The translations under genes and the position numbers were made by a program. Positions 13,780-64,000 of a stretch of 64,000 nucleotides of DNA are shown here, piece after piece (the first letter of the stretch is position 1; each line of letters starts with the position of its first letter). Below the pieces are notes generated by a model. It was given only the letters and a program-made list of their open reading frames with translations, made no database searches and was not told the DNA's origin. Source of the stretch: Echinarachnius parma (Eukaryota > Echinodermata > Echinoidea > Clypeasteroida > Echinarachniidae); the NCBI GenBank assembly GCA_037951105.1, contig JBAMJV010007650.1, forward strand, positions 1-64,000. The letters are read 5' to 3'.

Positions 13780-15870
13780 ATCACCAGAGGGGGGTACTTT
13801 CTGCGAGGTTCTGAAAACACTGCCATCACCATGGCATCTCAGAGCCCAGTCGTCAAGCAGATAGACAAGCAGTTCCTGGTGTGTGGCATCTGTCTGGACC
13901 GCTACAAGGTGCCCAAGGTGCTTCCGTGTCTTCACACCTTCTGTCAGTGCTGTCTCGAGAACTACGTCCCATCGGAGGCCCTGACGCTCACTTGCCCAAT
14001 CTGCAGACAACAGTCGATAATCCCGATAGAGGGTGTTGCAGGTCTTCAGTCAAACTTCTTCATAACGAACTTGATGGAGGTCCTAGAGAGGCCAGAGAGC
14101 AATGGTGGTGGGGATTCCCCCATTGGAGACCACGTGCTGGCATGCGCAAGCCACGAGGGTGAGATACTGACGTATTACTGCGACAACTGCGAGACAGCTA
14201 TTTGCGAGGAGTGCACCATGACGGAGCACTGCGACCACAGTACTGTCCTCCTAGCGAATGTCATCGAGGAGCACAAAGAGACACTACGGTCAATCCTCGA
14301 AGAAGCCAAAACCCAGATACCACAACTCAAAGATGCAATAGCGAAAGTGACCTCAATCGCGTCGCGCCTCTCAGAGAAGAAGTCAAAGGCGGAAACTCAG
14401 ATCTGTGATTCCTTCGGAATGCTGGAGGAGGAGGTCCGCGAGAGGAAAACAGACATGATCAAAGAGTTGGATGCCTGTCACAGTGCAAAACAAAGTGTGC
14501 TACAGAGGCAACGGAGCCTCCTCCAGGAGAGCCTGAGTAGTATAGAGAACAATTGTGAGTTCACGGAACAAGCGTTAGCTAGTGATAACGAAACCCATGT
14601 GTTATTAGTGAAAAAACAGATGCTGAGTAGATTGCAAGAATTATCGCAGCTCACTATGCAACTCAAACCGGAAGAGAACGATTACATCAACGTCTCCTGC
14701 GATATTGATTCCATTCAGAAAAGCATTGCCAATATCGGGCTTGTGCAGTCAAACAGTGCCGTTCCACATGAAACTATCGCCTATGGTGAGGGGCTGAAGC
14801 GGGCTGTCATTGGAGAACAGACAGCAGTCACCATTACAACCAAAAACAGTCGAGGTGTGCTGGTGAAAACAGGCCACGCCCCTCTTTCAGCACAGCTGAG
14901 AACTCCAGATACCAAAGTAGAAGACCTGCCTATTCTTGACAATCACAATGGCACTTACGATGTGATCTATTCCGTGCAAAAGGAAGGGAGCCATAGTCTC
15001 TCAATCAAGCTCTTTGATGAGCATATACGAGGAAGTCCTTTCAAGCTGAAGGGTTGCAAAGACGACGGATCATCAACACCAAAGTCACCATCGGGTAAGA
15101 TACCTCTCAGGACTAGTGTGAGACAGAAAGCGACCCGGAGACCTCAGAGTGCCAGTGGCAACGTCAGAACATTCCGCAGCAATAACCCCATCGAGGATGA
15201 CCTGATTCTGACTATTGGGACACATGGGCGCAACAAGGGGGAGTTCACGAACCCCCAGGGGATCACCTGCACCCCCTCTGGACGCATTCTCGTCACCGAC
15301 AGCAACAACCAGTGTATTCAGGCATTCAACAACAACGGGGAGGTCAAGCAACGTTTCGGCGTACGTGGTCGCAGCAATGGACAACTGCAGCGTCCAACGG
15401 GTATCGCGGTCAGTAATAACGGTAACTACATCGTCGCTGACTATGAGAACAAGTGGATCAGTGTCTTCAGTCCTGAGGGGAAATTTATGAGTAAGATTGG
15501 CACAGGGAAGCTTGTGGCTCCAAAGGGAGTTGCAGTGGACAACAATAACAACATCATCGTCGTTGACAATCGAGCGAGCACCATCTTCATCTTCTCCCCA
15601 TCAGGGAAAGTCCTCAACAAGATCGGATCCAGAGGAGCCCAGGATCAGCAGCTCTGCGGACCTCACTTTGTGGCGATCAACAAGGACAACCAGATCGTCG
15701 TCTCTGACTTTCACAACCACTGCATCAAGGTCTTTGACATCGAGGGTAATCTGGTGACCACCTTCGGGTCACGAGGAGAAGGCAATGGGCAGTTCAACGC
15801 TCCTACTGGGGTTGCTGTGGATGGCCTTGGGAACATCATCGTGGCTGACTGGGGCAACAGTAGGTTACAG
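13780..15870 (+). CDS. TRIM2: TRIM2/3 main coding exon
   Basis: The large exon is bounded by acceptor ttttgcag at 13779 and donor CAG|gtgaga at 15871. It holds everything except the end of the last NHL blade. Its last residues (WGNSRLQ) are the usual end of an NHL blade; the next exon starts VFDSSGSF, the usual start of the next one. The open frame continues only six codons into the intron (VRNNY then stop). Coding GC is far above the flanks. Confidence 0.92.
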
Positions 15871-17392
15871 GTGAGAAATAATTATTAACAAATTTCTTGC
15901 ATGAATAGAGTGTGTGAATTCAATTGATGGGAATGACTGTAAATGAAGAACTTTTGTCATATCAGTTTTTACCAACTATGGAAACTAATTGTAATATGAA
16001 TAAACCTCTGGGAATCGCTTTATCCGAGAACAATTTTTTCAAAGCTTGATCAATATTTTTGGAGTGTCCTTAAATGATTTTCAGAGATAACCTGTTCCTA
16101 GGCGGACATCACCTGCAAAGGCATTGAGTGGTTGTTGAGTAATTCAAAGTTCCATCAACATTAACATAACATATTTCTTTCATGTTTTCCTTAAGTCTTT
16201 GATTCCAGCGGTTCATTTGTCTCTTACATCAGCACCATGGGTGACCCTCTGTACGGACCACAGGACATCTGTTTTACCAGCGAGAGTCTTGTTTTTGTCG
16301 CTGATTCCGGGAACCACTGCGTCAAGGTGTACAAGTATCACTGAGATCAATCATATTGCCAAAACTCTAACACTAACACATTACTATGATCTTTCTCCAA
16401 TAGGTCTTTGACTCCAGCGGTTCATTGGTGTCCTATATCAACACCATGGGTGACCCACGCTAGGGACCCCAGGACATCTGCATCACCAGTGAGGGTCATG
16501 TTGCAGTAACAGATTTCTGGAATCACTGTGTCAAGGTGTACAAGTATCACTGAGATAAATCGTATAGCCAAAACACTAACATAAACGTATTTATTTTATG
16601 TTGTTCCATCAGGTCTTCGACTCCAGCGGTTCATTCGTCTCTTACATCAACAACATGGGTGACCCACTCTACGGACCCCAGGACATCTGCATCACCAGTG
16701 AGGGTCATGTTGCGGTAACGGATTTCTGGAATCCCTGTGTCAAGGTGTACAAGTATCACTGAGATAAATCGTACAGCCAAAACACTAACATAAACGTATT
16801 TATTTGATGTTGTTCCATCAGGTCTTCGACTCCAGCGGTTCATTCGTCTCTTACATCAACACCATGGGTGATCCTCTGTACGGTCCCCAGGATATCTGCA
16901 TCACCAGCGAGGGTCACGTCACGGTCGCTGATTCCGGGAACCACTGCATCAAGGTGTACAAGTATCACTGAGATAAATCGTACAGCCAAAACACTAACAT
17001 AAACGTATTTATTTTATGTTGTTCCATCAGGTCTTCGACTCCAGCGGTTCATTCGTCTCTTACATCAACACCATGGGTGATCCTCTGTACGGTCCCCAGG
17101 ACATCTGCATCACCAGCGAGGGTCACGTCGCGGTCGCTGATTCCGGGAACCACTGCGTCAAGGTGTACAAGTATCACTGAGATAAATCGTACAGCCAAAA
17201 CACTAACATAAACGTATTTATTTGATGTTGTTCCATCAGGTCTTCGACTCCAGCGGTTCATTCGTCTCTTACATCAACACCATGGGTGACCCACTCTACG
17301 GACCCCAGGACATCTGCATCACCAGCGAGGGTCACGTCGCGGTCGCTGATTCCGGGAACCACTGCATCAAGGTGTACAAGTATCTGCAGTAG
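13780..17392 (+). CDS. TRIM2: TRIM2/TRIM3-type E3 ubiquitin ligase (RING, B-box, coiled coil, filamin, NHL)
   Basis: The gene encodes a TRIM-NHL protein orthologous to vertebrate TRIM2/TRIM3, cytoplasmic RING E3 ligases studied in neurons. Coding runs 13831-15870 (680 codons, phase 0) and then joins one of the tandem last exons; with the copy at 17240-17392 the protein is 730 aa, close to the ~740 aa of the family. Visible parts: C3HC4 RING (C18, C21, C33, H35, C38, C41, C55, C58), B-box from C105, coiled coil about 145-300, filamin/ABP280 Ig domain about 310-413, a basic Ser-rich linker, then NHL repeats from about 465. The N-terminus ([12 protein letters not shown]) matches the family start I recall, and ATG 13831 sits in a strong context (caccATGg). 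The frame is open upstream to 13774, but 13780 follows a polypyrimidine-AG acceptor, so a 5' UTR exon must lie upstream and was not found. Family assignment is very firm; TRIM2 versus TRIM3 cannot be decided. Confidence 0.93.
16195..16344 (+). pseudogene. TRIM2/3 last-exon duplicate, copy A (damaged acceptor)
   Basis: The frame is open over the exon ([12 protein letters not shown]...[14 protein letters not shown]), but the expected cag before GTC is ttaa, so the only AG uses the G of GTC and splicing there would shift the frame. It is the most diverged at its 5' edge and probably dead, although nearest to the donor at 15871. Confidence 0.65.
16404..16553 (+). pseudogene. TRIM2/3 last-exon duplicate, copy B (stop codon)
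   Basis: Same reading frame as the other copies, but Tyr-Gly after MGDP is replaced by an in-frame TAG at 16461-16463, and ADSGNH is TDFWNH. The acceptor differs (ctccaatag) and the preceding intron is less alike. If spliced in it would end the protein inside the blade. Confidence 0.75.
16613..16762 (+). CDS. TRIM2: TRIM2/3 last-exon duplicate, copy C (open, altered NHL signature)
   Basis: Acceptor intact and frame open to TGA, but the conserved ADSGNH signature is replaced by TDFWNP, as in part in copy B (TDFWNH). Either it is decaying or it encodes a changed blade. Phase 0. Confidence 0.5.
16822..16971 (+). CDS. TRIM2: TRIM2/3 last-exon duplicate, copy D (intact)
   Basis: Intact acceptor and 49 codons plus TGA, phase 0. 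It differs from copy F mainly by HVTVAD for HVAVAD and the KYH end. It carries the same short ~60 bp following intron as its neighbours, so the duplicated unit is exon plus intron. Confidence 0.6.
17031..17180 (+). CDS. TRIM2: TRIM2/3 last-exon duplicate, copy E (intact)
   Basis: Intact acceptor (ttccatcag) and 49 codons plus TGA, almost identical to copy F except for NHCVK in place of NHCIK and the KYH end. It could serve as an alternative terminal exon; its use in transcripts is unknown. Confidence 0.6.
17240..17392 (+). CDS. TRIM2: TRIM2/3 last exon, copy F (canonical terminal exon)
   Basis: Acceptor ttccatcag at 17239; reads VFDSSGSF...[11 protein letters not shown] then TAG, 50 aa. Only this copy ends KYLQ-stop, the C-terminus I recall for vertebrate TRIM2/3; the other five end KYH-stop. 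It is phase 0 with the main exon. It is the most distal of six copies and the best candidate for the normal last exon. Confidence 0.85.
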
Positions 17393-18941: not shown

Positions 18942-19422
18942 GCACAGTCAAACCTGTGTATAGTGACCACCTAGCACAGTCAAACCTGTGTATAGTGACC
19001 ACCTAGCACAGTCAAACCTGTGTATAGTGACCACCTAGCACAGTCAAACCTGTGTATAGTGACCACCTAGCACAGTCAAACCTGTGTATAGTGACCACCT
19101 AGCATAGTCAAACCTGTGTATAGTGACCACCTAGCACAGTCAAACCTGTGTATAGTGACCACCTAGCATAGTCAAACCTGTGTATAGTGACCACCTAGCA
19201 GTCAAACCTGGGTATAGTGACCACCTAGCATAGTCAAACCTGTGTATAGTGACCACCTAGCACAGTCAAACCTGTGTATAGTGACCACCTAGCACAGGTA
19301 AACCTGTGTATAGTGACCATCTAGCACAGTCAAACCTGTGTATAGTGACCACCTAGCACAGGTAAACCTGTGTATAGTGACCACTACCTAGCACAGTTAG
19401 ACCTGTGTATAGGGACCACCTA
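18942..19422. repeat. 15-copy 32 bp minisatellite
   Basis: Unit CAGTCAAACCTGTGTATAGT-GACCACCTAGCA, fifteen copies with few changes (CATAG for CACAG, GGTAAACC for GTCAAACC). No unique spacers separate the units. Confidence 0.95.
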
Positions 19423-28774: not shown

Positions 28775-28849
28775 TTTATTATTTTAATTTGTATTATTAT
28801 TATTATTATAATTATTATAATTATTATAATAATGATACTAATTACTATT

Positions 28850-28881
<32 letters not shown>

Positions 28882-28921
28882 CATTATTTTTATTATCATT
28901 ATTATTATTATTATTATTATG

Positions 28922-28954
<33 letters not shown>

Positions 28955-29040
28955 GTTATAATTAATTATAATTATTATTATTAATTTTATTTTTAATTAT
29001 CATTACAATTATTATTATTATTATTGTCATCATGATTATC
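28775..29040. repeat. (TTA)n microsatellite
   Basis: About 260 bp of ATT/TTA repeats with interspersed ATC and AAT; an open frame of Ile residues across it is meaningless. Confidence 0.97.
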
Positions 29041-29590
29041 ATTTTGTGATGTACTGTGATGTATTTGAATGTTAAGTCAACATTTGTTTTGTTTAATTGT
29101 TTATTTGTTTATGATAATCAACTCACAGAGACAAATTCAAGCCTTGAATGACAAAAGTAAAATATCTTTCATCTTGTAAATTCCAGAACCATTTATTGCA
29201 GTTTAACCCATTTAGAGCACTATCAGAGACCTATCGATCTATGCTCTGTGGAAATTGTGTGTTATACTAAAATAATCATGACTCCAATCGGTTAAATGTA
29301 GCATTTTATTCAAGATGGGTTAATTTATGCGCCTGTATTATCATAAACGGGTCCTCTGATTCGCAAGGTTATTTTAGTAGATGGATGAAAATTTAACACA
29401 CTATTGGTATGATTAAATAATCCCTAATTTAGTCCGCCATGGGGCTCAGGGTGTTTTAACCCCGAAAATGTTAAAAAAAGAACTCCCGAAAATCACAAAA
29501 GAGACCCTTTAAATTTGCATAGAATGAAAAGCAAAACAAATTTGATAGTGCTGTTGATTTGCAGGCAAGCTTGAAAAGTTGCTCTTGAAA

Positions 29591-30784: not shown

Positions 30785-30837
30785 GATGTATGTATGGGTG
30801 TGTGTGGGTGTGCGTGTGTGCGTGCGTGTGTGTGCGC

Positions 30838-30872
<35 letters not shown>

Positions 30873-30990
30873 GAGGGGATAAACTGTTGGATGTGTGTGT
30901 GCACGTGTGTGTGTGTGTGTATGTGTGTGAAGAGGGGATATACTGTTGGATGTGTGTTTCTTTGTGTTTTGTTTGGGTGCGTGTGTTTAT
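30785..30990. repeat. (TG)n microsatellite with AAGAGGGGATA duplications
   Basis: TG/CG repeats interrupted by GAAGAGGGGATAYACTGTTG-GATGTGTGTG, a block also found at about 31097. Confidence 0.95.
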
Positions 30991-34071: not shown

Positions 34072-35370
34072 ATGGATTTCGAAGGTATTCCCGAGCCTAT
34101 CGACTTTGACTTTTTTGACGAAGGACAGTCATCGGAGCGCAATGGCCGTTCGAATTCTCCGGACTACAGCAGCAAGCCAGTTCGTCCTTCCAGCGGAAAG
34201 CGAAGCAAGAGTGCACGGGGAAATGACGGGGAGCATGACCGTGAATCAGTGCGTAGTGCGACGAGCAGCCGCAGCAGCGTCAGTGTCAGAATTCCGACTG
34301 CAACGCCAACACACGATGATGGGAATGACGCCGATTATTACTCGGATGACTTTGATGAGAGTGATCAAAAGGACAGATACAAGGAAAAGGGTGATGACAC
34401 TTTCCGTTTTAAAGATGATATCGGAGCTTTGAAAAGTAAAACAAAAAATAAAACTGATGCGCGTTCAAATTCAAAATCAAATTCAAAATCAAACAAGGAC
34501 AAGGTTAACGAGCGTGAATCATCCTCAAAGTCAAACTCAAAAAGTGCCATGAAATCACGACCAAAATCTTCAGCCCCGAGGAGGCAACAGAGATCACGCT
34601 CAAATAGTTCAAGTTCATACTCGTCTGAAACGGACAGCACTGCGAGCGAGAGCTCAAGTTTCACTTCGGAGTCTAGTTGTAAATCAAGCCGAAGTGGGCG
34701 AGACAATGAAAGCGTAACCAGTGTTTCTCCGCTGCAGAGCCCGGCAAGTTCGCCGATTCCAAAACTCGAATATGATCAACAGGAAATGGAGCGGGACACA
34801 GAGAAAATGCGCAGTGTCAGATTTGTGGAAGATGATGAAACGGATGAGAGATACTCTTCAAGAAGCGCCAACGACAAAAGCGGGAAAGGAAGACCCAAAT
34901 CGTCGAAAGCTCGATCGAGACCGAAATCCAGTTCCGTCAAGACGCCTGGCTATTCCCACTACGGAGATGAAGCTCCCCTGCGAGCGACCGAAGCAAATGA
35001 GCTCAGCATGCTGCTCAGGGCCGTGCTTGAATTAGACGAAACACCGCAATCGTCAGAACTTGCCGCCCTGCACAACGATTTAAGGAAGCCGCTCTCGGGG
35101 AAGCGCAAGAACCGTCCGCAGTCGGCGCCCATGTCAACCATGCCCCATCAGCGTATGAACATGTCATTTAGTAACGATGAGGTTTCGCGTATCGACAGGG
35201 AGAACAGGAGGCTGCTGGAGAGGATAGTGGGCCGGTCGACTCAAGCCCCTGCCCCTGGGCCCGGCTCAGCATCTGGCACCAGACCAAGGACAGCCATCGA
35301 GCACAAGCCCACGAGTCACTCGGCCGTCAAAAGGCAGCGGGAACAGAGGAGGATAGAGATGGAAAATATG
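34072..35370 (+). CDS. CFAP97: CFAP97 exon 1 (433 codons)
   Basis: Starts at ATG 34072 (MDFEGIPEPID) and ends ...RRIEMENM at donor ATG|gttagt. The open frame runs 22 codons into the intron to a stop at 35437-35439. A short upstream ORF precedes it. Composition is rich in Ser, Arg and Lys, typical of the disordered middle of this family. Confidence 0.88.
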
Positions 35371-47300: not shown

Positions 47301-49524
47301 CGGATCAATTTCAAACTTGGTATGAGTGTACACATCGGGGTAGCAATGATCAGATTATATTTTGGGGGTCATGAGGTCAAAGGTCAAGGTCACAGGACTC
47401 AATATATGCAAAAATGGCTTGTAATGGCAACATTTCAATCACTGAATGTCAGATTTCAATCAAACTTGGTACCTGAATGTTTCTTAGGGAGCCAATGTGG
47501 CCATCAAAGTTTGGGGTCATATGGTCAAGGTCACAGGACTCAAAATATATGAAAAATAAACAAAAATTAATTCAGTGCACGTTAATTTGGGCTTGATATT
47601 GAAATCGCGTGATAGCGGAGGCATAATTTTCGACTGCGCGCAGTCGAAGATCCATCTAGTTTTCCATAGACCCTAGCCCAAGTATTTTTGAGACCAGTCC
47701 TGAATGGGTTAAGAGAATAGTGATAACACTACAACAGTGCTTTTCCTCTACGCTTCAAGCCAACCCTGAAGGCGAATTGAAGCTGCGAGGGCCAATCCTT
47801 GAAGCAAAGTAGTCACTATTCCACAATTTTCACTAGCAGAGAAGCATTATTGTCTTCCACTGTTTTTTTTTTTTTTTTACAGAATCCTTTTCTTACATTA
47901 TTGTTAATCCTAAAAAACAGAGTGCTAACTGTGCTTTTCCTATATTTTCTTCTCTGACAGCGAATCCTGAAACGAATTTAGGCTGCGAGGGCCAATCCGC
48001 AGATCAAGAAGGAGTCGCTCCTACATGACTGTCATGAGCAGAGAAGCATTGTTGTCTTCTAAGTACTGACTAAATGCACAGAATCCGATTCCTACAGAAT
48101 TGTTAACACTGACTGCTAACAGTGCTTTTCCTATTTTTTCTTCTCCTTAAACAGCAAATCCTGAAGCGAATCGAGTCTGCAAGGGCCAACCCACAGATCA
48201 AGAAGGAGTCGCTACTCCACGACTTTCATAAGCATAGAAGCATTTTTGTCTTCTATTGCCTTTCCTGACTAAGAGAATGCTAACAGTGGTTTACCTATAT
48301 TTTCTTCTCTTACAGCAAATCCTGAAACGAATCGAGTCTGCAAGGGCCAACCCGCAGATCAAGAAGGAGGCGCTACTCCATGACTTTCATGAGCAGAGGA
48401 GATACGCCAACCAGGTATCAAAGACTCCTGGCGGCATCAGAAGCAGACCCACCAGTGCAAAGCGAGCAGGTAAAACATTCAAAGAAAAGAATGTCAAAAG
48501 AGCTCCTAAAAATGTGTAAAAGTGCCCCTGTAAATTACCATAGAGTTCTATGTTTTTACCCCTTGACCACGGGAACCGAGTGGGTTGTGTAAAGTCTATG
48601 GGGATTTTATAAACTCGAAGGGAATGGGTTAAAGGGATCTAGTAACTTTTTGTTGACATATGCAAACAAAATGACAAAGCTTAGGGTTGATGAAATGTTT
48701 ATTTCTTTGATCTTATGTCTACTGATTGCTGTGTGAACATTCCATGGTAAATGAATGTCATATGTGACCTTATACCACAAAACGACCAATAAGTCTGGGA
48801 AAATGATTATGCTGATTTTCACATGACATCACAGTAGAATTCATTACCTTTGAAATGGTATATAATTTGTCATATTAAGACAAGGCAAACCCTCTGAAAA
48901 TGAGCGCCGAAGATTTGGAAAAAGCTGAAGCGGTTTTAAAACAAGGGAGAAACGGGCCACTTCAAAGATCGGCGTCCATTTAAGCGCTGTAATCTAATAA
49001 TTTTTATTCGATGAAAAAACATACTTCAACATGATTTCTGACGATCAAAGTTTCATAGAAGATAGATTAAGATACCGTCATTCAGGAAATACAAAAATCC
49101 TGAATCTCATACTTTTAACCAAATTTGACTATTTCAGCTAATAACAGAAACTATATCCGCGACATTACGGTCGTTTTGTGGTGTAAGGTCACATATGACC
49201 AAGTAATGAGCAAAAATGCATAGTGATACTTGCTAACTCATAATTTGTACACAGTTAAAAGTCTCCTCAGGAAACAAGAAAACAAGATTATTTATTCTGA
49301 CTCTTTTGTACATTTTTGTTCCTTTTTCAGGTAAGAATTACAACGACGGAGGCATGGCCAAGGCATCTAGCATGTCCAGTCTCGGGACGGACTACACTGT
49401 CGACACGGTGACTTCTACCAGCTCCAGACAGTCTAGACCAAGGAGTGCCAAGTGGTCAGACAGCGGGAGCGATTACCACGGGGCCAAACCAGCTTGGAAT
49501 GAGCGCTTCTACCTGGACCAGTAG
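34072..49524 (+). CDS. CFAP97: CFAP97 (KIAA1430/hemingway) family ciliary protein
   Basis: Three exons, 34072-35370, 48316-48469 and 49331-49524, join in frame (phase 0, then phase 1) to give 548 aa. The family acts in motile cilia and sperm flagella (hemingway in flies). Landmarks in order: acidic N-terminus (IDFDFFDEG), YYSDDFDES, long Ser/Lys/Arg-rich disordered region, SVSPLQSPASSP, SMLLRAVLELD near residue 308, then the family core MNMSFSNDEVSRIDRENRRL near 361-380 and KRQREQRRIEMENM joined by splicing to QILKRIESARANPQ and HDFHEQRRY. These match the order and wording I recall for human CFAP97 ([38 protein letters not shown]). The first intron is 13 kb and filled with repeats. Confidence 0.9.
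36120..36770. repeat. Diverged two-copy ~370 bp repeat with AGCGCCCTCATTG
   Basis: AGCGCCCTCATTGTTGAGTA-GGGCGCCCTC at 36219 and AGCGCCCTCATTGCTATAGA-AGGGCGCCCTC at 36617 mark two diverged copies. An open frame of 118 codons across the second has no recognisable features. Confidence 0.6.
37984..38047. repeat. Twin GGGCCGATTWAATCGGCCC palindromes
   Basis: GGGCCGATTATATCGGCCC and GGGCCGATTAAATCGGCCC lie about 45 bp apart, each near-perfect palindromes able to form short hairpins. The role is unknown. Confidence 0.7.
38284..38790. mobile_element. TIR element with internal 23 bp perfect hairpin
   Basis: Ends TGTTCACACACAAAAATTT and AAATTTTGTGTGTGTGAACA (written inverted in the sequence as AAATTTT...GAACA) pair. 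Inside, 38305-38327 and 38340-38362 are perfect reverse complements around a 12 nt loop, and TAATCATGATT/AGTCATGATT motifs recur. Confidence 0.8.
38838..38895. repeat. Single end of a GGGGGTGTTTCAC-family element
   Basis: GGGGGCGTTTCACGAAGATT then AAAGTTGAACTTAACTCTAA matches one terminus of the family; no matching right end was found nearby. Confidence 0.5.
39761..40980. mobile_element. TTAA-flanked MITE (AGGGATAGTTGAG family) carrying a nested element
   Basis: Begins TTAAAGGGATAGTTGAGTTT and ends with its inverse AAACTCAACTATCCCTTTAA. Removing the nested 39901-40548 element leaves about 572 bp, matching the uninterrupted copy at 45781-46331. TTAA at both ends suggests a piggyBac-type transposase acted on it. 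Confidence 0.8.
39901..40548. mobile_element. Nested TTAA-flanked MITE (AGGGCAATG family)
   Basis: Ends TTAAAGGGCAATGAAACT and AGTTGCATTGCCCTTTAA are inverted repeats ending in TTAA. It interrupts the host element exactly where the empty copies read AATGACAAAGTAAAA (41090s) and ACGACTAAGTAAAA (45900s). It also holds an AATAATAATAAATCACTTAT repeat tail near 40187. Confidence 0.8.
40977..41158. mobile_element. Partial AGGGATAGTTGAG element, head to head with 39761-40980
   Basis: Starts at the shared TTAA (CCCTTTAAAGGG junction) and runs through TAACCAAAACCTGCACCATT to the ACTCAAGAG segment, then stops where the hairpin-ended element at 41164 begins. Confidence 0.65.
41164..41529. mobile_element. 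MITE with perfect 34 bp TIRs that are themselves hairpins
   Basis: 41164-41197 and 41496-41529 are perfect reverse complements. Each arm begins GCTAGCGCGAAGCGCTAGC, an 8 bp stem with a GAA/TTC centre, followed by GTTCTAGGTCCTCCT. The interior is non-coding and GC-richer near the right end. Confidence 0.85.
42260..43292. repeat. Two-copy tandem duplication, 520 bp period
   Basis: Copies start at CAGAAAATTG at 42261 and 42781 and both end GAAGACACTAGATATTCAAA. They share the GTTTGACCAGAACTGTACT and CACACACGTACCAGGCTAAC blocks with scattered substitutions and small indels. Confidence 0.9.
43293..44339. other. CFAP97 intron 1, no feature beyond short repeats
   Basis: A short GC-richer segment at about 44020-44200 (GATTGATCACGGCCACTGCG) is not explained. 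Confidence 0.3.
43885..43960. repeat. Short direct duplication
   Basis: CTAGTGTACATCTACATGTA-GGAAAAGTGTAGAGCTCT occurs twice in a row at a ~39 bp spacing. Confidence 0.85.
44340..44560. repeat. GGGCAAGTAAAAT repeat family
   Basis: GGGCAAGTAAAATCATAAAT ... CTTGCCCGC ... ACTTGCCCCGGGCAAGCGGG, then CAAGTGCTAGTGTCGATCGA-GCCCTG. The inverse phrase CAGGGCTCGACACTATCACT-TGCCC occurs at 46576, so it is a dispersed repeat. Confidence 0.65.
45120..45430. repeat. Four-to-five-copy ~80 bp tandem repeat
   Basis: Units share TGATATTGCATTTTGGAACC, AATTGTACAATCCAT and ATTTTGAACAATAACA, with small indels. Confidence 0.85.
45490..45560. repeat. Triplicated GGGCTACTAAAAGTTGCTTT
   Basis: Three and a half 20 bp units in a row. 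Confidence 0.85.
45781..46331. mobile_element. Complete TTAA-flanked MITE (AGGGATAGTTGAG family)
   Basis: Starts TTAAAGAGATAGTTGAGTAT and ends CACTCAACTATCCCTTTAA, with the inner TAACCAAAACCTGCACCATT and the ACTCAAGAGGGCGCTCT block. It is the reference uninterrupted copy. Confidence 0.75.
46707..47662. mobile_element. Repeat element with five ~150 bp internal units
   Basis: Starts TTATGCCTCCGCCTACGAAG and near its end carries the inverse GCGGAGGCATAA, followed by the palindrome CGACTGCGCGCAGTCG. Inside are (GTCC/GTAC)n and about five units with ATATCTCAAGAACCGGTTGA, CAAACTTGGTATGAGTGTAC and GGTCAAGGTCACAGGACTCA. Confidence 0.8.
46921..47392. promoter_or_regulatory. Repeated AGGTCA direct-repeat clusters
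   Basis: GAGGTCAAAGGTCAAGGTCA occurs at 46921 and again with at most one change at about 47071, 47222 and 47371. Each holds AGGTCA-A-AGGTCA (DR1) followed by another half site, the form bound by RXR/HNF4-type nuclear receptors. Binding is inference. Confidence 0.4.
47761..47860 (+). pseudogene. CFAP97 exon 2 duplicate, copy w (degenerate)
   Basis: The sequence CCCTGAAGGCGAATTGAAGC followed by TGCGAGGGCCAATCC and later GCAGAGAAGCATTATTGTCTTC aligns to copies x and y, but the acceptor AG is lost and indels break the frame. It is the most distal from the working exon and the most decayed. Confidence 0.65.
47961..48060 (+). pseudogene. CFAP97 exon 2 duplicate, copy x (stop codon)
   Basis: Acceptor tctctgacag present; reads RILKRI then TAG at 47979-47981, then AARANPQIKKESLLHDCHEQ. 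Clear homology to exon 2 with an in-frame stop. Confidence 0.75.
48155..48262 (+). pseudogene. CFAP97 exon 2 duplicate, copy y (open, alternative end)
   Basis: Acceptor ccttaaacag intact; reads QILKRIESARANPQIKKESL then LHDFHKHRSIFVFYCLS and a TGA near 48266. It lacks the 3' half of the real exon and its donor. It could act as an alternative terminal exon giving a shortened protein, but more likely is a decaying copy. Confidence 0.6.
48316..48469 (+). CDS. CFAP97: CFAP97 exon 2
   Basis: Acceptor tctcttacag at 48315; reads QILKRIESARANPQIKKEAL then HDFHEQRRYANQVSKTPGG, and ends at GCAG|gtaaaa in phase 1. It completes the conserved CFAP97 helix. Three decayed copies lie just upstream. Confidence 0.85.
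48768..49198. mobile_element. MITE (TGACCTTACACCACAAAACG family), copy 2 in CFAP97 intron 2
   Basis: Left TCATATGTGACCTTATACCA, right GGTGTAAGGTCACATATGA. Reverse orientation of 32303-32741, sharing ATTTTCAGAGGGTTTGCC (as its inverse) and the GGACGCCGATCTTT-like block. Confidence 0.8.
49331..49524 (+). CDS. CFAP97: CFAP97 exon 3 (C-terminus)
   Basis: Acceptor cctttttcag at 49330; the split Gly codon is completed and reading continues KNYNDGGMAKASSMSSLG... to WNERFYLDQ-stop. Ser/Thr-rich, with SRPRSAKW resembling the basic SRPTSAK of exon 2. The exon begins GTAAGA, so acceptor and donor consensus overlap here. Confidence 0.8.
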
Positions 49525-49739: not shown

Positions 49740-51750
49740 ATAATAATAATGGTATTTTTATTCAACAAAATGTCACATTCACAGCTACAAGCTGAATTGC
49801 AGTGTCATTTGCAACAATATTTACAAACATGGAAATAACGTTAATGAACTCACGAGGTATAAAGAAACCTTAATATATTATATACAATAATTAGAGAAAT
49901 AAATCATAATATACCTGAATAGTATCACAAATTAGGCATGAATACTAACGAAAGACAGTAAATTATATTATTATTTTGTATATCGATTAATCAATAATTA
50001 AGTGATTACAAAAATCAATAGGCATCATGTATCAATTTATATTTCCTAATGCAAATTTTATATTTTAAGATAACATTAAAACCATTATGACTGCTGTAAC
50101 ATTTACTGGGCTAGTTAAAAATTTACGAAAATTACATAATATAGCTCAATCACAAATTAATAGAATAACGAATTAGCCGTAATTACTAACCAACGACAGT
50201 GAGTAATAATGTTGTTTTATATATTGATACATGAAATGAGTAATAACAAAAGTCCATAATATAATATTAAGGCATCGTGTATTAATTCGATTTTCTAATG
50301 CAAATTTAATATTTAAAAGTAAAATTTAGAAAATTTAGACTACTTATAAATTAATATTTATAACACTTACTAAGCAAGTTAAAGATTTATACAAAAACTA
50401 CATAAACTAGCAGCAATTCTTGGAAATTAGTAAGAATTAATTATCCGAATAGAATGATATGATATATGAATCATAATGTATTGCATTCAATGGCTTAACT
50501 AACTTTATTCAATTACATGGATTATGGATATAATGATATCACCCGTAAATTGAGACTCGTACACAAAAATGCGAATTCAAATGCATTTCAATAAGAGTGT
50601 TTTGGTTTGGTTCAATAGCTTATAATAATCAACACTTACTTTTAAAGTCAAAAGTATTAAATGTACAATTATAAGGTACTGTATCTCGCTGTAATAACTA
50701 GTTTGTCCAAATCAATTATCCAATACAATTCGTAAGGGTGAATAAATGCATTTTTACCATCAAAGTATAATTGCCCGTTATTATACACAAATGCCTCACA
50801 CAAAGGAAGCATCATAATAAAGATAGGAAGCATCATAATACAGATCGGAATTATGTGCGTGAACAATTATAACACAATAATCAAATCAAATCAGTATATT
50901 ATAATAGTACATAACTTACGTGTCTAATGTATTACATGCATCAATATACATGGGGATTTTAAGGCATCTAATTAGTATTTTTATTCAAGCATCTCACAAT
51001 GTAAGGAATAGGGCTGGACCTATACCTTTCTGTCCTACAACCAATAGAATATAAATTTGTTTGACGACGTAACTGCCTTCCAGTGTCTGGTCTCTGTTCT
51101 GGGAGCCAGTTCCGGAAATCATTGGAATTAAGGAGGGATTTGCCGAACTTCAAGCATGTTTTCTTTCGCCTATCTTCCAGAGTTTCAACCATCGTAACAT
51201 CCAAAGCATTATCATATGATCCATAAAGGGGACCCAAAATCAGCCTTAGTGCTCGTTTCTGGACTCTTTCAATAGAGGCTGTTTGCATTTTTGTTAGACC
51301 AGGGTGCCAAACAGGCACCCCGTACTCTACCAAGGGGCGAACGTATCCCTTATAAATCAATATCAAATCTCTCATTGATAATTTAAATGGAATTAAAGAA
51401 CGAAGAATATGCATTCGCTAATTAGTCTCCCTAATCATAGCATACACCTGACCCTCCCACTTAAGATTTTCATTAATCAAAATACCAAGGACTTTCATTT
51501 AATCTACTTGGGCTAGAGTCAAATTATTAATTTTAACATCGAGCGGTATTTGTTCATATTTACCAAAATCGACACGCATTACATTGCATTTATTAGGATT
51601 GAGTTTCATATTGTTTGTATCACACCATTGAGTTAATGAGTCCATGGTCGGCTGAGATATGGTCATCAATAGTGTAGAGAATTGGATCCTCTCAGTCTCC
51701 TGACATGAAAAGTACTTCAAATTGTTGCAATTCACTAGAAATGCAAATGT
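49740..51750 (-). mobile_element. 5'-truncated L2/CR1-like non-LTR retrotransposon
   Basis: The minus strand carries the end of a reverse-transcriptase ORF, then about 1.2 kb of AT-rich 3' region that ends in ...TTGAATAAAAATACCATTATTATTA, a typical microsatellite-like tail. It begins about 215 bp after the CFAP97 stop, so CFAP97 transcripts may run into it. The 5' end is missing. Confidence 0.7.
50968..51735 (-). pseudogene. Reverse-transcriptase C-terminal fragment
   Basis: One reading frame with two in-frame stops: WCDTNNMKLNPNKCNVMRV (end of the palm region), then VLGILINENLKW, stop, then LIYKGYVRPLVEYGVPVWHP and the thumb-like IERVQKRALRLILG. This wording is typical of the end of the RT domain in L2/CR1/Jockey-type elements. 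Only two stops in over 250 codons suggests fairly recent death. Confidence 0.8.
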
Positions 51751-57065: not shown

Positions 57066-57465
57066 CACACATTTCAAAACATTTTTATTACCCCCCAAGT
57101 AACGAAAAAAAACAATCTTTGAACCAAAAGTGATAAATATGCATTGGAATTATGATGTCCACCATTAATTATGGACATTAATTAAGTAAGTCTGGTGTTT
57201 TTAGTGATTTTCATCGACCCTCACTGGACGATTGATCAAAAAAGATCGAAGGGCTTCTAAGTGTGCACACATTTCAAAACATTTTTATTACCCCCCAAGT
57301 AACGAAAAAAAACAATCTTTGAACCAAAAGTGATAAATATGCATTGGAATTATGATGTCCACCATTAATTATGGACATTAATTAAGTAAGTCTGGTGTTT
57401 TTAGTGATTTTCATCGACCCTCACTGGACGATTGATCAAAAAAGATCGAAGGGCTTCTAAGTGTG
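57066..57465. repeat. Perfect 200 bp tandem duplication
   Basis: 57066-57265 and 57266-57465 appear identical base for base, from CACACATTTCAAAAC to GGGCTTCTAAGTGTG. Either very recent or an assembly artefact. Confidence 0.9.
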
Positions 57466-59827
57466 CGGATGACGTCATCCGCGCGTGCAGATTTGTCAAA
57501 ATGTAGCGCGCTCTGTCAAAATGGCAGCGCGCTCAATCTGGATAGGCGATGTACGCAACCGGGAGTACGTGCTTCGCTCACCCATTATACATGTACTACA
57601 ATTGTTATTCAGTTATCACACTTAAAAACAAAAAAGAAATATTTTAATTTTGCTTACAAATGTTTGTTCTCTTATTTGCTGTTCGTAACAAAATAACAAA
57701 TTATATTTGTTTTTTTTAAATAAAATGATAATGCATACCTAATAAAGATTTGTTTTTAGAGTGTTGCTCTATATGTACCTACTCTAGATGGCAGATAATA
57801 CTTGAGCTTTCTCAAAAATAAATCTACTAATTTTTTCTCCTTTTTTATGTTGTTCATAACATAAATTAAATGTATTTGCAAATACACTGATAATGTATTC
57901 CTTTTAGAGTGTCACTTTATTAAAAAAAACACCATTTCTTGTACATGTACAAATGTGCCACTCTATTTGCAGTTACTATGGGAAATAATCCTCTTTAGCA
58001 GTAATGATCAAGCTTTGATTGTTGTCAAGGTTACCGTTAATTGTGAGTTTGTGCAAAGGACAGTGAAAGTAGTTTTTGACATTAAGACATTTTGCACTTT
58101 AATGTAGGTAAAAAGTGTACCATCTTAAAGTGATCCATTATCTGGACGCTTGCTTTTCTGAAAGTGATATATTTGAGACTTCAATCATCACATTCTAATA
58201 TCATTGTCAAATTCTTCTGAATGATGTGTGATAGTTTTATAGAAAAAGAACATTTCACCAATGCACATTGATATCGACTATAATTAGGGAGACATTTGAG
58301 CATTCTTAACCCGTTTCATTCTTCTGTTACCATAAGCCAAACAACAACGTACAAGAGAAATGTGGAAGCTCCAAGTGATTTTGGTTGAATTCGACAAATT
58401 AATGAATCACTTTAATAATAGAGGCATGTACTTTTTCAGCAAATTCACAATTGCAATTGAAACATGAATTTTACACTTAATTCTTACAAATTATAATATT
58501 ACACATTTCTTTCACCAATGTTTGGTGTAAATGTAAAAACTTGTACGTACTTGTACGGTTTGAATTGTACTGCACTTTTACTATCATACTTTTTCCAATA
58601 AGAATGAGTTGCATATTATCACAGGAGCCATTTGAACAAACATTTGAATCCATTTTTTAATGTAAATGTAAACTTTATGTGAAAGTACATTTAACTTATA
58701 TCAATAGTCTCATTACTTGATATTCACGCTTTTTATGTAGTCACACACATGTCAAAATAATAATTGTAATAATGGTAATAATAAGTATATTTGTTCTTGA
58801 TAAACATGACCCATTACCATGCTGTACGCTACAAATTAACCAAGTATGTAAATACAGCTCAAAAAGAAATGTTTTGGAAGTTACGGACACCAGAAATTGA
58901 GAATTGCGATCAATTTTTCCAAAATATTGTATATAACGATTCAATAAGTACTCCTTACTGTAATTTTGTATGGATTAGATTAATGTACGCATAGTAAAGG
59001 TGAGAATTAATGCAATAGAAACCCCCAAAACGCAGAAGTTACAAACAAAATTGAGCAATACTCGGCAATACATACATCATTAACATATAAGTCATTCATG
59101 ATTGCTTGTTAATTAGTGTACTTTTATTAAAGTAACTACTGCCCATTTAATTCATGTACTAATTATTGTATTGATTGTAAATGTACTAACTACTAATTAG
59201 ATAGAAAAAACAAATTATTGTCCGTGTGCTAAATGTTAATAATAAGAAAAATAACTAATTATTTCAGATGCAATGTTTTATTTTCTGTACATAAGATCTA
59301 TATATGGCGCAATAAAAATTTGTGTTGCTTTGCCGTGACGTCCCTAGCCTCAAAACAGTTGTCTGGTCAGGGTTTTATTTTCCTCGTGTCACGTCTCGCT
59401 ACTTCCCTGTAGCAAAAAATAATAAGAGAGACAAAGAGTGAGAGAACAAAAGAATAAAACAAGTATCAAAAACAGAAATTTAAGAAAGGTATGATGATGA
59501 TGATGATAATGATGGTGGTGAATGAGAGAGAACAAAAGAAGAAGAAAAGTATGAAAACAGTAGACACTTGTTGGCATACAGATTAATTAAAGGATGATGA
59601 TATCATCATCTCTCAAGGCTCTTCAAAGACAAAAAAAGACCTTGATCATTGAATACAATGACACAATAAATCCATATCTGACACACACATTTTCTACTCA
59701 CTTGGGAGTAAACTGCTTAGGCAACATATATTTTTGTGAATAGTATCCACGCATATTTTGCAGTATTATGAGGTAACTTTGTACATGTTATTAACAATAC
59801 AGTATGTTATTGACTGAATAATTATAC
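57466..59827. other. Intergenic between repeats and the CARS2 3' end
   Basis: Begins with a GC-rich patch (57466-57570: GATGACGTCATCCGCGCGTG and repeated AGCGCGCTC), then AT-rich sequence. A (GAT)n tract at 59492-59520. No gene seen. Confidence 0.4.
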
Positions 59828-60020: not shown

Positions 60021-63000
60021 CTGCAGAAAATGTTAAAGGGCGCACAAAAAGATTAAAACTACCATTGTTTGTTTAAAATAAAGCAGCGTAGTATGGCCTT
60101 TCATACATTGTAGGTCCCTTATTATAGCATGGAATCTAAATATATCAAGCGATCCTGGGGCCCCCGTTTCATGAAAGGGTCTTATCTTAAGACCGTCTTA
60201 ACTGTCACATGACTGTGACTGATCTACGGACATACGGATGGCGTTTGTTCCGATCACAAAAGTCAAGGTTGGAAGTATAATGGCAAATACGCTTTCATAC
60301 AACACTTACTCATTGCACTCACTTTGGACATGGTTTTGACGGTCCAGTGGATAATTTAAGATCTGAATACTTCAATCATAAATATCTTTTTAACGAAAGG
60401 GAAATTTGAAAAACCAAAACCTGTCCCATGCTTTTATTGTAAATACGAATACAACATGAGGGAACCGCTAGAATTCCAATTGGATTTTGAGGATTTGGAC
60501 AATGTTACTTAGTCCCTTTAAGAATGTACTGTACTTAATGAAAAAATAGACTTGTTGATATCTGTATGCGGGACCAACCAGTAACACAAAGGCAATATTA
60601 AAGAGCATCTGCGGACTGGTACAATTTCTGCAAAAGAAGAGTTGATAATTATTCTTGGTTCAATTCCCAACCTACAGCACATGTGTGTCCTTCAGCAAGG
60701 CACCTTTTCTACACTTGCTTCTCTCAACCCAGGGGGGTGTTTCACAAAGATCCTAAGTTGGACTTATGGAAAGCCATTTGTAGCCTTGGAATAAAATATG
60801 TTCAAAAGCAAAATGGAAGTATTTTAGACTTTCATAAATTTTATATGAAGAACATAGAATCTCCTTGATAATAGAAAATAGTAATGATCCGAGTTGCCAT
60901 TTTATGCCTTTTAAAGGAACTTTTACAAACAATTTTCAAAGAAACTAACCACATTCCATAATTTGTAATGATCCGAGTTGCCATTTTATGCCTTTTAAAG
61001 GAACTTTTACAAACAATTTTCAAAGAAACTAACCACATTCCATAATTTGTAAGTCCAACTTAGAGTTAAGTTCAACTTAGGATCTTTGTGAAACACCCCC
61101 AGGTGTAATAAATGGACACCTGGCAGGAATGTATGCGACTAGGGCAGTTCTGCTAAAGCTAGGGTTATATTATATATACATTTGTATATTAATATACTAG
61201 CTGTGCCATACAAGTGAACATTATTATTATCATTATTATTATTACATTATTAGAAAACGGGCTTTGCTAGAATTGAACCCGAGACATCCAGATTGCTAGA
61301 CCAGTGCGCAACCATCGAGACACAAAGACAATTATATGGCAGTTAATTCTTTAGTCCGATACCTTTATTTGGATGCCCTGTCTTGACAGTGTATCTCTAA
61401 CTTCATCGCAAGATTTTAGGAGCGGAGCTCTCTCTTTCAGCACTTCTTTCTTTCTCGCTGCGGCCTCAGATGCATCTAACAAGAATAAATAAAACTAATT
61501 ATGAATATGCATACATTATTTATACATGCACAAATGATGTTGAGTAGCCACAATTCTCTGAAATACATAAATATATAAATGCTTCTAAACATGGACACTT
61601 CGGCCTTTCAGACTGCCAGGTATGTATTATATATTGACATCTAAACATCATGTTGCTTCCTTCAATGATTGGCAAATCTATAGCCACAGATAAACTTTTC
61701 TACATAGTTTCTACATAGATTTGGGTTATCGCATCAAAACATTTTAATTCCAGGCCTCAAATACGTCGCCGTGTCATTTTCTACTTCGTAGGGAGCATTC
61801 CAGTATGGCAGGCACGCATAAAAAGGTACACACTCAATGAAATATAAAACTGCAAAGTTCTATCTAAACAGAGAAACTTTGTCTAGGTTGATAGCTATTG
61901 ATTTGTACGCAGAAAGTGTTAAATCTCATCTCCATAATTTCGCTGCAACTTAGTCCGGATATATAAATAGTTCATCATTCAACATTATGTCTTTGAAGAA
62001 ATATACACTCAATGGCAATCAAAACTTTGCAGACCACAATAGAGAGACATAAACTCGGTTTACAGTTAATGATATGCACCAAGAAATTTAATATGTATCT
62101 CACCCAGATTTTTTGTTCCTGGCACATCGAGAGCCCATCTTCTGACGTCCTGCCTGAAGCCAACCAGGGTGTCCATGGCAGTGGTCATTGCTTGGATGTT
62201 CTGGTCCTCATCAACACTCTATTGGAATGAGATCAAAATCATCAAAATTAGAGATTCAAAGATTTAAAAAAGAACATTATTACATATATTTACACTCAAT
62301 AGTAGAAGCTAGCCTGATTTGTTTGTGTCTCCTGGGATATCGAGAGCCCATCTTCTGATATCCTGCCTGAAGCCGACTAGAGTATTCATGGCAGTGGTCA
62401 TCGCTTGGACATTTTGATCATCATCAACACTCTAATGGAATTAGATCCAAAATCACCAAAATTATGACAAATTATTACTCCTATTTACACTAGATAACAG
62501 TAGCTGGGCTGAGTTTGTCTCCTGGCACATTGAGAGCCAATCTTCGAACATCCTGCCTGGAGCCGACCAGGGTGTCCATAGTATTGGTCAAAGCTTAAGA
62601 CATCCACACAACAGTGGAGCCATTTTAAGTCATGGTATCTAAACCACCTCTGTGAATTCCAGCCAAAGAATTGAGAACCAATTGTTACAATGTCCACAGT
62701 AACACTTTATATGAAACACCACACAGATACACATGAACTTTTTATGCTAATGATGTGTCGATACTTGAAAAAAGACTTACCGATCTCTTTGTGAGTTGCA
62801 ATCCCAGTGACGTGAGTACATGATAGACATAGGTTGAGACGGCTGCTACTACCCCTGGACTTCTGGCCGACATATTCTACACAAAATGAAACAGTCAGAA
62901 CATTTATCTATTTTTAACCCACGACCTCTCATGCACGAGACGGATGCTCTACCACTGAGCCATATGCCCGGTCAACTATCACCGGGTACCATTACCCAAA

Positions 63001-64000
63001 ACTAATATTCTTATAAATGAAAGGTAACACCTTTAGTAGTCCATTCCATCAACAAGTTCACAAAAATATGTTTCCAGAAAAGAAAAAAAATAATTGGAAA
63101 ACGCATCACCATTCTAAAGCATGCGTTCATGGGTCTGAATTACGAAGACTAATTTGTCCAGAGCGAACGAATCGTCCGGGATTCTATTGTCTCCAAACGT
63201 ATGCGTGAATAGCATTGGCGCACTCGCAAATGTTTGGCCCGTACGGAACCAGGAAATAATAGTGGTTCCGTAAGTGGTTGTAATTAATTGCTTTGTTTAG
63301 TTATTACACAATCCTTTGCAAAATGTTGGGTATCTATTTGATATCACAAAACGATACCAAATCATAAAACTATGTGTTGTTCTTTGCCTGGTGGTCCCCT
63401 TTAACTTTAGTATGCATAATGCAAAAGCTCGTAGGCAAGCTAGGGGTTAAAATATACTCACACATTGCTGGCTGAAGTGTGCATTGCCTTCCTGTACAAG
63501 CTGCATTATAGCATCCAGAGCTCTCTTGGTGTCAAAGTCATCCGCAAATGCCTGCATGACTTCTTGTTGGGCGTTGGACAAGCTGAGAAATAATAGAACA
63601 TGTTCAAATTACTGTAATTGTATATAATGGTCCTGGGGGTGTTTAGTAAAGATTCAATGTTGGACCTACATGTAACTACTATGGAAAGCCATTAGTTTCT
63701 TTGTACAATTGTTGGAACAGTTCTTTTAAAAGGCATACATTTTTTATCGCACATCAGTATATTTGTTATTATCAAGGAGCCTTGAAGTTATTGATATACA
63801 TTTCCGTTGGAAGTTTCAAACATATTCTATTTTTGTTGCTTTTGAATATGTTTTATTCCAAGGCTACAAATGGCTTTCAATAATTGTTACTTACTTCTAA
63901 GGTCCAACATAAAAGTTAAGTTCAACTTAGAATCTTTGTGAAACACCCCCCTCCCAAGCAATTATATTGAACCCATCAATCTAGAAATTTAATTCAGAGG
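59952..64000 (-). CDS. CARS2: Mitochondrial cysteine-tRNA ligase (CARS2), 3' part
   Basis: Five exons of the minus-strand gene can be joined: 63582-63462, 62876-62781, 62218-62104, 61475-61363 and 60020-59952; the rest lies beyond the window. The enzyme charges mitochondrial tRNA-Cys. The exons encode the C-terminal helical (anticodon-recognition) region: FADDFDTKRALDAIM, SPGVVAAVSTYVYHVLTSLG, LVGFRQDVRRWALDVPG, LKERAPLLKSCDEVRDTL then RQGIQIK joined by splicing to DRGKTATWEFVE. I recall the same series in human CARS2 (ALADDFDTPR, LVRFRQKVRQFAL, LRERQPLLEACDTLR, INIKDRSSTTSTWELL). All junctions keep frame (phases 0, 0, 1, 0). Catalytic HIGH and KMSKS motifs are outside the window. Confidence 0.88.
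60300..60521. mobile_element. Half of a TTTAAAGGGACTTAGTAACA-family MITE
   Basis: ACTCATTGCACTCACTTTGG ... CCAAAACCTGTCCCATGCTT ... AATGTTACTTAGTCCCTTTA is the reverse of 9281-9500. Confidence 0.65.
60640..61135 (+). mobile_element. SINE-like repeat split by a MITE
   Basis: GGTTCAATTCCC (box B-like) then GTGTCCTTCAGCAAGGCACC and CTTCTCTCAACCCAGG is a widespread animal repeat phrase; its continuation AGGTGTAATAAATGGACACC resumes at 61100 after the GGGGGTGTTTCAC element at 60733-61100. Confidence 0.45.
60733..61100. mobile_element. MITE, GGGGGTGTTTCAC family (with internal duplication)
   Basis: Ends are inverted: GGGGGGTGTTTCACAAAGAT at left, ATCTTTGTGAAACACCCCC at right. Inside, a ~68 bp block (about 60891-60958) is repeated almost perfectly at about 60965-61031. 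Confidence 0.75.
61215..61330 (-). mobile_element. tRNA-derived SINE with TAA-rich tail
   Basis: On the minus strand a box A-like GGTTGCGCACTGGTCTAGC is followed ~30 bp later by box B-like GGGTTCAATTC, then GCAAAGCCCG and a (TAA/TGA)n tail. It lies in the last CARS2 intron. A decayed tRNA gene is less likely because of the tail. Confidence 0.55.
61363..61475 (-). CDS. CARS2: CARS2 penultimate exon
   Basis: Acceptor attcttgttag, donor AAG|gtatcg. Reads (D)ASEAAARKKEVLKERAPLL then KSCDEVRDTLSRQGIQIK. Unspliced reading would add VSD and stop, but the splice to the last exon restores the conserved IKDR. Confidence 0.83.
62104..62218 (-). CDS. CARS2: CARS2 exon, tandem copy 1 (good splice sites)
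   Basis: Acceptor ttccaatag, donor CTGG|gtgaga, 115 nt (38 codons plus one base): SVDEDQNIQAMTTAMDTLVG then FRQDVRRWALDVPGTKNL. Joins cleanly to the next exon (G|AT gives Asp). It is the most 3' of three tandem copies and the only one with a normal GT donor. Confidence 0.82.
62314..62431 (-). CDS. CARS2: CARS2 exon, tandem copy 2 (open, GC donor)
   Basis: 118 nt, open in the same phase: SVDDDQNVQAMTTAMNTLVG then FRQDIRRWALDIPGDTNKS, one codon longer than copy 1. The acceptor (ttccattag) is intact but the donor position is CAG|gctagc, a weak GC donor. It could be an alternative exon or a recently silenced copy; reading through meets TAG at once. Confidence 0.6.
62500..62620 (-). pseudogene. 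CARS2 exon, tandem copy 3 (degenerate)
   Basis: Reads ALTNTMDTLVGSRQDVRRLA then LNVPGDKLSPA in the frame of copies 1 and 2, but the 5' part has deletions and a TAA just upstream, and no clear acceptor or donor remains. Confidence 0.7.
62781..62876 (-). CDS. CARS2: CARS2 exon (helical domain)
   Basis: 32 codons between acceptor ttgtgtag and donor TCG|gtaagt: NMSARSPGVVAAVSTYVYHV then LTSLGLQLTKRS. Phase 0 at both ends. Confidence 0.83.
62917..62979 (-). other. tRNA-like relic (SINE head or tRNA pseudogene)
   Basis: The minus strand has a perfect box A/D-arm (TGGCTCAGTGGTAGAGC) and GAGGTCGTGGGTT in place of the variable/T-arm, but box B is broken and the anticodon stem does not pair normally. 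It abuts the MITE at 62980. Confidence 0.5.
62980..63404. mobile_element. MITE (TTAAAGGGGACCACCAGGCA family), reversed copy 3 in CARS2 intron
   Basis: Reads GGGTACCATTACCCAAAACT at left and GCCTGGTGGTCCCCTTTAA at right, the reverse of copy 1, including ACGCATCACCATTCTAAAGC. Confidence 0.75.
63462..63582 (-). CDS. CARS2: CARS2 exon (ADDFDT)
   Basis: Acceptor tttctcag, donor TGT|gtgagt. One base completes a codon, then 40 codons: LSNAQQEVMQAFADDFDTKR followed by ALDAIMQLVQEGNAHFSQQC. The A-DDFDT-R segment is a hallmark of cysteinyl-tRNA synthetases. Confidence 0.87.
63635..63950. mobile_element. MITE, GGGGGTGTTTCAC family, in CARS2 intron
   Basis: Inverted ends GGGGGTGTTTAGTAAAGATT and AATCTTTGTGAAACACCCCC with inner GTTGGACCT/AGGTCCAAC. 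Shares its core with the copy at 51756. Confidence 0.7.

Follow-up and report, generated by a model that had tools for sequence, protein, structure and literature searches.

In plants, direct tandem duplications known as patch-mediated or paired-nick duplications are explained by opposed nicks and subsequent fill-in, and extrachromosomal microDNA circles of nucleosome-scale size are enriched in exons. In addition to these processes, small tandem duplications produced by Pol alpha-primase during broken-end repair are described as direct, local and nearly free of junction homology (PMC8355091). Another study ties FEN1/rad27 small inverted triplications, at a scale of 148/160 bp, to nucleosomes and Okazaki termini, and reports more tandem duplications upon loss of Rad27 (PMC13334657). 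Exon sequence lying side by side within a gene is known from tandem exon duplication and mutually exclusive exons (PMC9013439; PMC9741552), and copies that cross exon borders are defined as classes by the tool Exonize (PMC12343006).

The window analysed here, a stretch of 64,000 nucleotides of the echinoid Echinarachnius parma, carries three exon arrays in neighbouring genes, as the preliminary description had proposed. In the TRIM2/3 gene (identified as TRIM2 by homologue comparison, 91% to S. purpuratus), the main coding exon lies at 13780..15870 on the plus strand, recognized from the sequence, Pfam and homologues, with its acceptor and donor assigned by eye. Downstream, five truncated last-exon copies, together with flanking intron (16157..17239, plus strand), precede the native last coding exon (17240..17392, plus strand), whose end, KVYKYLQ-stop, matches S. 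purpuratus and Acanthaster; the five copies end in KVYKYH-stop. The array spans 16157-17384 with 5.9 copies, a period of 209 bp and a match of 90%, and it occurs on one contig only in the assembly.

CFAP97, identified by PF13879 and by tblastn with four related proteins, shows a similar arrangement on the plus strand. Between coding exon 1 (34072..35370) and coding exon 3 (49327..49518, tblastn extent), three truncated copies comprising the acceptor side and the start of exon 2 (47733..48282) lie in front of the native exon 2 (48316..48469), in which the donor and the full 3' part are present. In-register copies at 47947, 48141 and 48302 follow one another in steps of 194 and 161 bp, and a further copy near 47733-47860 is older and strongly decayed. 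The upstream copies lack the donor and ~68 bp at the 3' end of the exon, one of the exon 2 copies carries a stop codon, and this array, too, is confined to one contig of the assembly. The third array lies on the minus strand in a cysteinyl-tRNA synthetase gene, which is probably CARS2 and not CARS1; the identification comes from two adjacent exons that match PF01406 and PDB entries, whereas the duplicated exon itself has no Pfam match. Its copies, at 62117, 62330 and 62520, are separated by steps of 213 and 190 bp. The native exon (62104..62218) has an acceptor and a donor, read by eye, and the two truncated copies (62313..62596), upstream of it in the gene, both lack the native donor, the outermost also lacking the acceptor side.

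In each of the three arrays, only the 3'-most copy retains the native exon end. Hence, of the original proposal that single exons are repeated with their flanking intron, the repetition stands, but the copies are not whole exons, as ends or splice sites are missing. They are exon pieces with flanking intron, both in the window and in dynein arrays sampled elsewhere in the assembly, and by-eye alignment of seven dynein arrays showed no copy that holds a whole exon together with its two splice sites. Because the copies in the window are truncated, they are not spare exons. That a copy has only one splice site largely follows from geometry, units and exons being of similar length, and is therefore not counted as proof of selection.

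The idea that the copies are alternative exons under selection, either mutually exclusive or alternative last exons, draws on TRIM2/3 copies 3-5, which keep the acceptor, are open to the stop codon, resemble the native copy and, as last exons, would not require a donor. Against it, TRIM2/3 copy 2 and one CFAP97 copy carry stop codons, the CFAP97 and CARS2 copies are truncated and lack splice sites, and in none of the three arrays does each copy combine both splice sites with an intact frame; in TRIM2/3 copy 1 the acceptor is shifted. The pooled divergence at the three codon positions (58/675, 44/674 and 106/669), with 0.147 in the intron parts, fits one live exon and one neutrally decaying copy, a model which predicts 50, 50 and 98 differences. 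The log-likelihood is -654.2 for one dead copy versus -717.0 for both live, the model of two live copies assuming a rate of 0.02 at codon positions 1 and 2, and the pooled codon positions thus lack the purifying selection on copies expected of alternative tandem exons. We consider selected alternative exons very improbable. The arrays differ from mutually exclusive exons in the truncation, the missing splice site and the neutral decay of their copies, and in that most duplications (51/71 arrays) are non-exonic.

The duplications fall into a size class. Of the 65 arrays in the sampled 318 kb whose period is 80-600 bp, 42 lie at 140-230 bp versus 16.0 expected under a log-uniform null, the bin having been picked after the data were seen. 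This bears out the suggestion that a widespread process duplicates segments of ~200 bp, and the lack of any 160-215 bp preference, named beforehand as counter-evidence, was not observed. Recovery of simulated two-copy duplications was flat across 80-900 bp at both 8% and 18% divergence. Two further features of the window, also suspected to be products of the process, both lie within the size class, namely a perfect 200-bp tandem duplication at 57066..57466 and an array at 3611..5698 with a period of ~185-200 bp and ~71% identity, for which similar sequence was found nowhere else in the 318 kb sampled. Median periods within 100-300 bp are 193.5 bp for exonic and 167 bp for non-exonic arrays, a difference that is not significant (p=0.23). 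The starts of 14 other contigs (140 kb) have sparser arrays, 7/17 of them at 130-250 bp, versus 24/36 on this contig (124 kb; Fisher p=0.13).

An ordinary background, in which partial and intronic copies of exons abound in animal genomes generally and neither this lineage nor the ~200-bp scale is remarkable, is the strongest competitor, though we regard it as unlikely. Exonize finds full-exon duplications in ~4-7% of vertebrate genes and partial, inter-boundary or intronic ones in significantly more (PMC12343006), and a 2002 study, as cited in PMC9013439, put genes with tandemly duplicated exons at ~10% in animals; moreover, exon bases are duplicated here at about the background rate. What speaks against this background is the strength of the size peak and its presence in non-exonic arrays alone (24/45, p=3e-5). 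A size class and a test of copy fate, as given here, are not among the Exonize results in the part of that source consulted.

The duplicated sequences are mostly unrelated to one another. The 51 arrays with periods of 130-250 bp form 46 sequence groups, with 44 singletons and one group of five. A satellite or mobile repeat family with a unit of ~150-200 bp could point to the 15/51 arrays for which the 318 kb contain some similar sequence at another place, yet five of these belong to one interspersed ~150-bp family, and another seven come from dynein exons and match further dynein loci; as 44/51 arrays match no other array and the peak survives removal of the ~150-bp family, such an origin is highly improbable. 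No RNA element matched Rfam at the gathering score.

Exon copies of this kind are documented for TRIM, CFAP97, CARS2, dynein and myosin only. One dynein exon is preceded by 15 truncated pieces, 13 of which have a common breakpoint, and one myosin exon shows the same truncated-copy pattern. Across 14 dynein loci the pattern occurs at 20/68 native exons, a rate for this assembly only, with which per-exon rates of other genomes are not comparable. For 22/70 native exons, a copy lies no more than 450 bp away. A myosin profile search, of a type that misses many truncated copies, scored 65/273 candidates, and its 82 matches included one close tandem pair. False tandem copies from consensus or haplotype-merging errors would agree with the perfect copy at 57066 and with the presence of some dynein and myosin exons on two contigs, as for unmerged haplotypes; the 5-30% divergence of most copies, whose identities are spread out, and the breakpoint common to the dynein pieces make an assembly artefact highly improbable.

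Exons, which the preliminary description had taken as the unit or target, are supported as neither, even though ~200-bp duplication is widespread: the units are exon pieces with intron, and duplications contain 2421 bp of exon versus 2125 bp in circularly shifted controls (p=0.17). Exon-targeted duplication is not favoured; duplications touch 24 of 72 exons, with 18.4 expected (p=0.012), a modest excess, and at a stricter score 19 versus 15.8 (p=0.10). A dead copy next to a constrained exon remains detectable for longer, which bears on this excess. A strong exon preference is thus absent, and this counts against the reinsertion of nucleosome-sized microDNA circles at their origin by recombination, leaving a tandem copy; the size scale is comparable, but we consider this route improbable.

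Three young tandem junctions, the only readable ones, show 1, 4 and 1 bp of homology (1 bp at 57066), and two of the three youngest junctions have units of 84 and 110 bp, outside the size peak. Direct tandem orientation with little junction homology, as in break repair, is therefore found at all three, and the likeness to the Pol alpha-primase duplications concerns these features (PMC8355091). An inverted middle copy, typical of FEN1-type triplications, is not the pattern here: merged direct pairs outnumber local inverted pairs by 86 to 16, so inverted-type events were rejected, although the size scale resembles theirs (PMC13334657). The resemblance to plant patch-mediated duplications, from another kingdom, concerns direct orientation.

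We favour, with a probability of roughly 65%, a lineage-level germline process that makes tandem duplications of ~140-230 bp, in which units spanning an exon border leave truncated, decaying exon copies. Such a process would be long-running and act widely across unrelated sequences. A unit placed across one exon border would yield a complete exon and at least one truncated copy with a single splice site; as the complete copy would keep the gene working, the duplication would survive while the truncated copy, probably skipped by splicing, decays neutrally. Some arrays may gain copies later, presumably by unequal exchange or slippage. The unit may reflect one nucleosome or one Okazaki fragment, with which it agrees in length only, and we infer a near-blunt repair or replication error at this length scale as the cause. 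Candidate routes are fill-in synthesis that follows opposed nicks made in adjacent linkers and, alternatively, faulty maturation of a lagging-strand fragment, either one joined with almost no homology. The weaker peak in the 14 other contigs, the two youngest junctions outside the peak and the post hoc bin were counted against this reading.

If the size class is sharp, it would connect small tandem duplication in the animal germline with the geometry of chromatin or of the lagging strand; until now, this connection has been drawn from mutants and tumours. Among the literature matches listed, mostly from outside subscription journals, none describes an echinoderm with a class of ~200-bp tandem duplications. 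If the favoured reading is true, the duplications would steadily supply extra splice sites and fragments of exons, and gene annotators should be warned that look-alikes adjoining real exons can be dead. More tentatively, and with the odds against it, an unusually active process in the echinoid lineage might copy one nucleosome or Okazaki length and leave about one third of coding exons with a dead 'shadow' with one splice site, preferentially on the acceptor side. One further observation, which the favoured reading does not predict, concerns the position of the copies, which lie upstream rather than downstream of the native exon at 16:6 (p=0.05).

The explanation pursued here is a widespread tandem duplication of segments of about 140-230 bp in unrelated sequences, followed by neutral decay of those copies that contain truncated exons. 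A single pipeline was run over the window and the stretches L007-L026 and L031-L044 fetched from the same assembly (318 kb), which called 76 arrays; removal of five arrays of one interspersed family left 71, of which 65 have periods of 80-600 bp. Within the 140-230 bp bin, which was picked after the data had been seen, lie 42 of these 65 arrays, against 16.0 expected under a log-uniform distribution (p=1e-11), and the preference for 160-215 bp proposed in the preliminary description falls inside this bin. The peak holds in arrays of about two copies (27/42), in those of at least 80% identity (31/44), and in non-exonic arrays taken alone (24/45, p=3e-5), while among exonic arrays 18 of 20 belong to it. 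A 520-bp tandem duplication of 91% identity at window positions 42258-43292 lies outside this main size class.

Detection was checked with simulated two-copy duplications (12 per cell). Units of 80-900 bp were fully recovered at 8% and 18% divergence, and with 26% divergence the recovered fraction came to 0.67 for 80-bp units and 0.92 for those of 115 and 145 bp; simulated 50-bp units gave zero recovery. This flat recovery indicates that, as far down as 80 bp, the drop under 130 bp has a cause other than detection. In 140 kb made up of the initial 10 kb of each of 14 other contigs there are 17 arrays, 7 of them at 130-250 bp, versus 24 of 36 on the source contig (124 kb; p=0.13 for the share). 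The weaker and sparser signal at the starts of other contigs counts against a general size class; contig starts may be richer in repeats, or, alternatively, the duplication process may be linked to genes.

The arrays are largely independent in sequence. Those of period 130-250 bp (51) fall into 46 sequence groups: 44 arrays stand alone, two dynein exon arrays form a pair, and five belong to one interspersed family, the sole multi-locus family among them. Its members (window 46818-47567, L007 1910-2256, L034 1706-2264, L041 2212-2941 and L044 3668-4101) have a unit of 144-151 bp with abundant AAGGTCA-like motifs. Similar sequence elsewhere in the 318-kb sample was found for 15 of the 51 arrays: these five, seven dynein exon arrays matching other dynein loci, and three whose matches are short.

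The window (bases 1-64000 of a 124,053-bp contig, in an assembly of 1.2 Gb and 14,790 contigs) contains the TRIM2/3, CFAP97 and CARS2 exon arrays where the preliminary description had placed them. TRIM2 shares 91% identity with S. purpuratus, and CFAP97 shares 56-60% with S. purpuratus, Lytechinus pictus, Diadema antillarum and one further protein, so that the source is probably an echinoid without close kinship to these species. In all three arrays the aligned copies run from upstream intron through the acceptor and part of the exon to a break. The TRIM2/3 break lies five bases ahead of the native stop codon, which gives five copies the novel ending KVYKYH*, and KVYKYLQ*, the ending also seen in S. 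purpuratus and Acanthaster, is retained in the sixth copy only. The break lies ~68 bp ahead of the exon end in CFAP97 and near the donor in CARS2, where the acceptor side, too, is missing from the outermost copy. In TRIM copy 1 the acceptor AG is displaced by one base, and stop codons occur in TRIM copy 2 and in one CFAP97 copy. Directly downstream of TRIM2/3, at 18942-19422, a 32-bp unit is repeated fifteen times (93% match), and on the minus strand at 50968-51417 a 149-aa open frame resembles the terminal part of a LINE-type reverse transcriptase.

A search of the same genome gave 110 matches to dynein AAA_6 exons. On contig C3447, 15 truncated pieces in three blocks, spaced mostly 178-206 bp apart, precede one dynein exon; 13 of the 15 break off at one common base, and the exon is complete in the last copy. 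Fourteen further loci comprise all contigs with at least three matches, minus C3447, as already known, and C9335, as the apparent other haplotype of C9139; they were picked by match number but not blind, tandem matches having already been noted on three. These loci account for 72 of the 110 matches; the remaining 38 lie on C3447, C9335 or contigs with one or two matches, or outside the stretches. Duplications of offset 50-600 bp overlap 24 of the 72 exons, compared with 18.4 (SD 2.3) in circular shifts (p=0.012); the excess is smaller in exon bases (2421 vs 2125, p=0.17) and by a stricter score (19 exons vs 15.8, p=0.10). After four matches that are themselves copies were dropped and TRIM and CFAP97 added, a copy lies at most 450 bp from 22 of the 70 native exons (dynein alone 20/68), a few of these pairs being weak (an overlap of 36 bp in L033, an offset of 405 in L040 and a score of 50 bits in L042). 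Seven dynein arrays aligned by eye include both upstream copies of the exon start and downstream copies of the exon end and donor, and a myosin exon on C1237 has a similar pattern (offset 313 bp, inner offsets 139 and 171). Downstream donor-type truncated copies, which mirror those of the window, occur in L035, L042, L044 and L032, with a single extra copy where aligned.

The fate of the copies can be read from the 22 copy-native pairs, in which codon positions 1, 2 and 3 of the exon part differ at 58/675, 44/674 and 106/669 sites and the intron part diverges by 0.147. A model of one live exon and one neutral copy predicts 50, 50 and 98 differences (logL -654.2). Two dead copies would give 99, 99 and 98 (logL -686.6), and two live copies, with positions 1 and 2 at an assumed 0.02, fit worse (logL -717.0). 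Pooled, the exon copies are, judging by these substitutions, dead. Since a live and a dead copy together diverge at half the clock, exon duplications would stay detectable longer, which may account for the modest excess of exons overlapping duplications.

The best-matching copy lies upstream in 16 of the 22 pairs and downstream in 6 (two-sided p=0.052), and the four largest arrays aligned or listed (TRIM, CFAP97, CARS2 and dynein C3447) are of the upstream type. If splice sites compete, an upstream acceptor should rather be at a disadvantage, opposite to this bias.

Homology at the three young tandem junctions amounts to 1, 4 and 1 bp, for periods of 200, 84 and 110 bp, of which only the first lies within the peak. 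Direct pairs, after merging, number 86 and inverted ones 16. The scant homology and the prevalence of direct pairs speak against an initial step of homology-driven exchange, and also against hairpin-type events. Judged by size, a duplication step on the scale of a nucleosome or an Okazaki fragment would be our favoured, though tentative, candidate, at rather less than even odds. According to PMC13334657, inverted triplications of 148/160/148 bp arise in yeast without Rad27/FEN1, their breakpoints falling at nucleosome midpoints and Okazaki termini, and tandem duplications also become more frequent; the length scale is alike, whereas direct pairs prevail here. Pol alpha-primase is crucial to small tandem duplications at break ends, according to PMC8355091.

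Tandem exon duplication itself is well known; a 2002 study, cited in PMC9013439, put its share at ~10% of animal genes. In the Exonize report (PMC12343006) about 4-7% of vertebrate genes carry duplications of full exons, and genes with partial, inter-boundary or intronic duplications are significantly more numerous, so that partial exon copies per se are not new; the portions of the literature searched contain no description of the size class, its spread across unrelated DNA or the density of dead exon shadows.

On contig C2768 the same myosin exons occur twice (27785-39190 and 117946-128363), ~89-90 kb apart, which points either to a large duplication or to haplotypes joined end to end in the assembly. 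Near-identical exon matches on the contig pairs C9139/C9335, C99/C1854 and C6989/C7396 suggest that the 1.2-Gb assembly retains both haplotypes in places.
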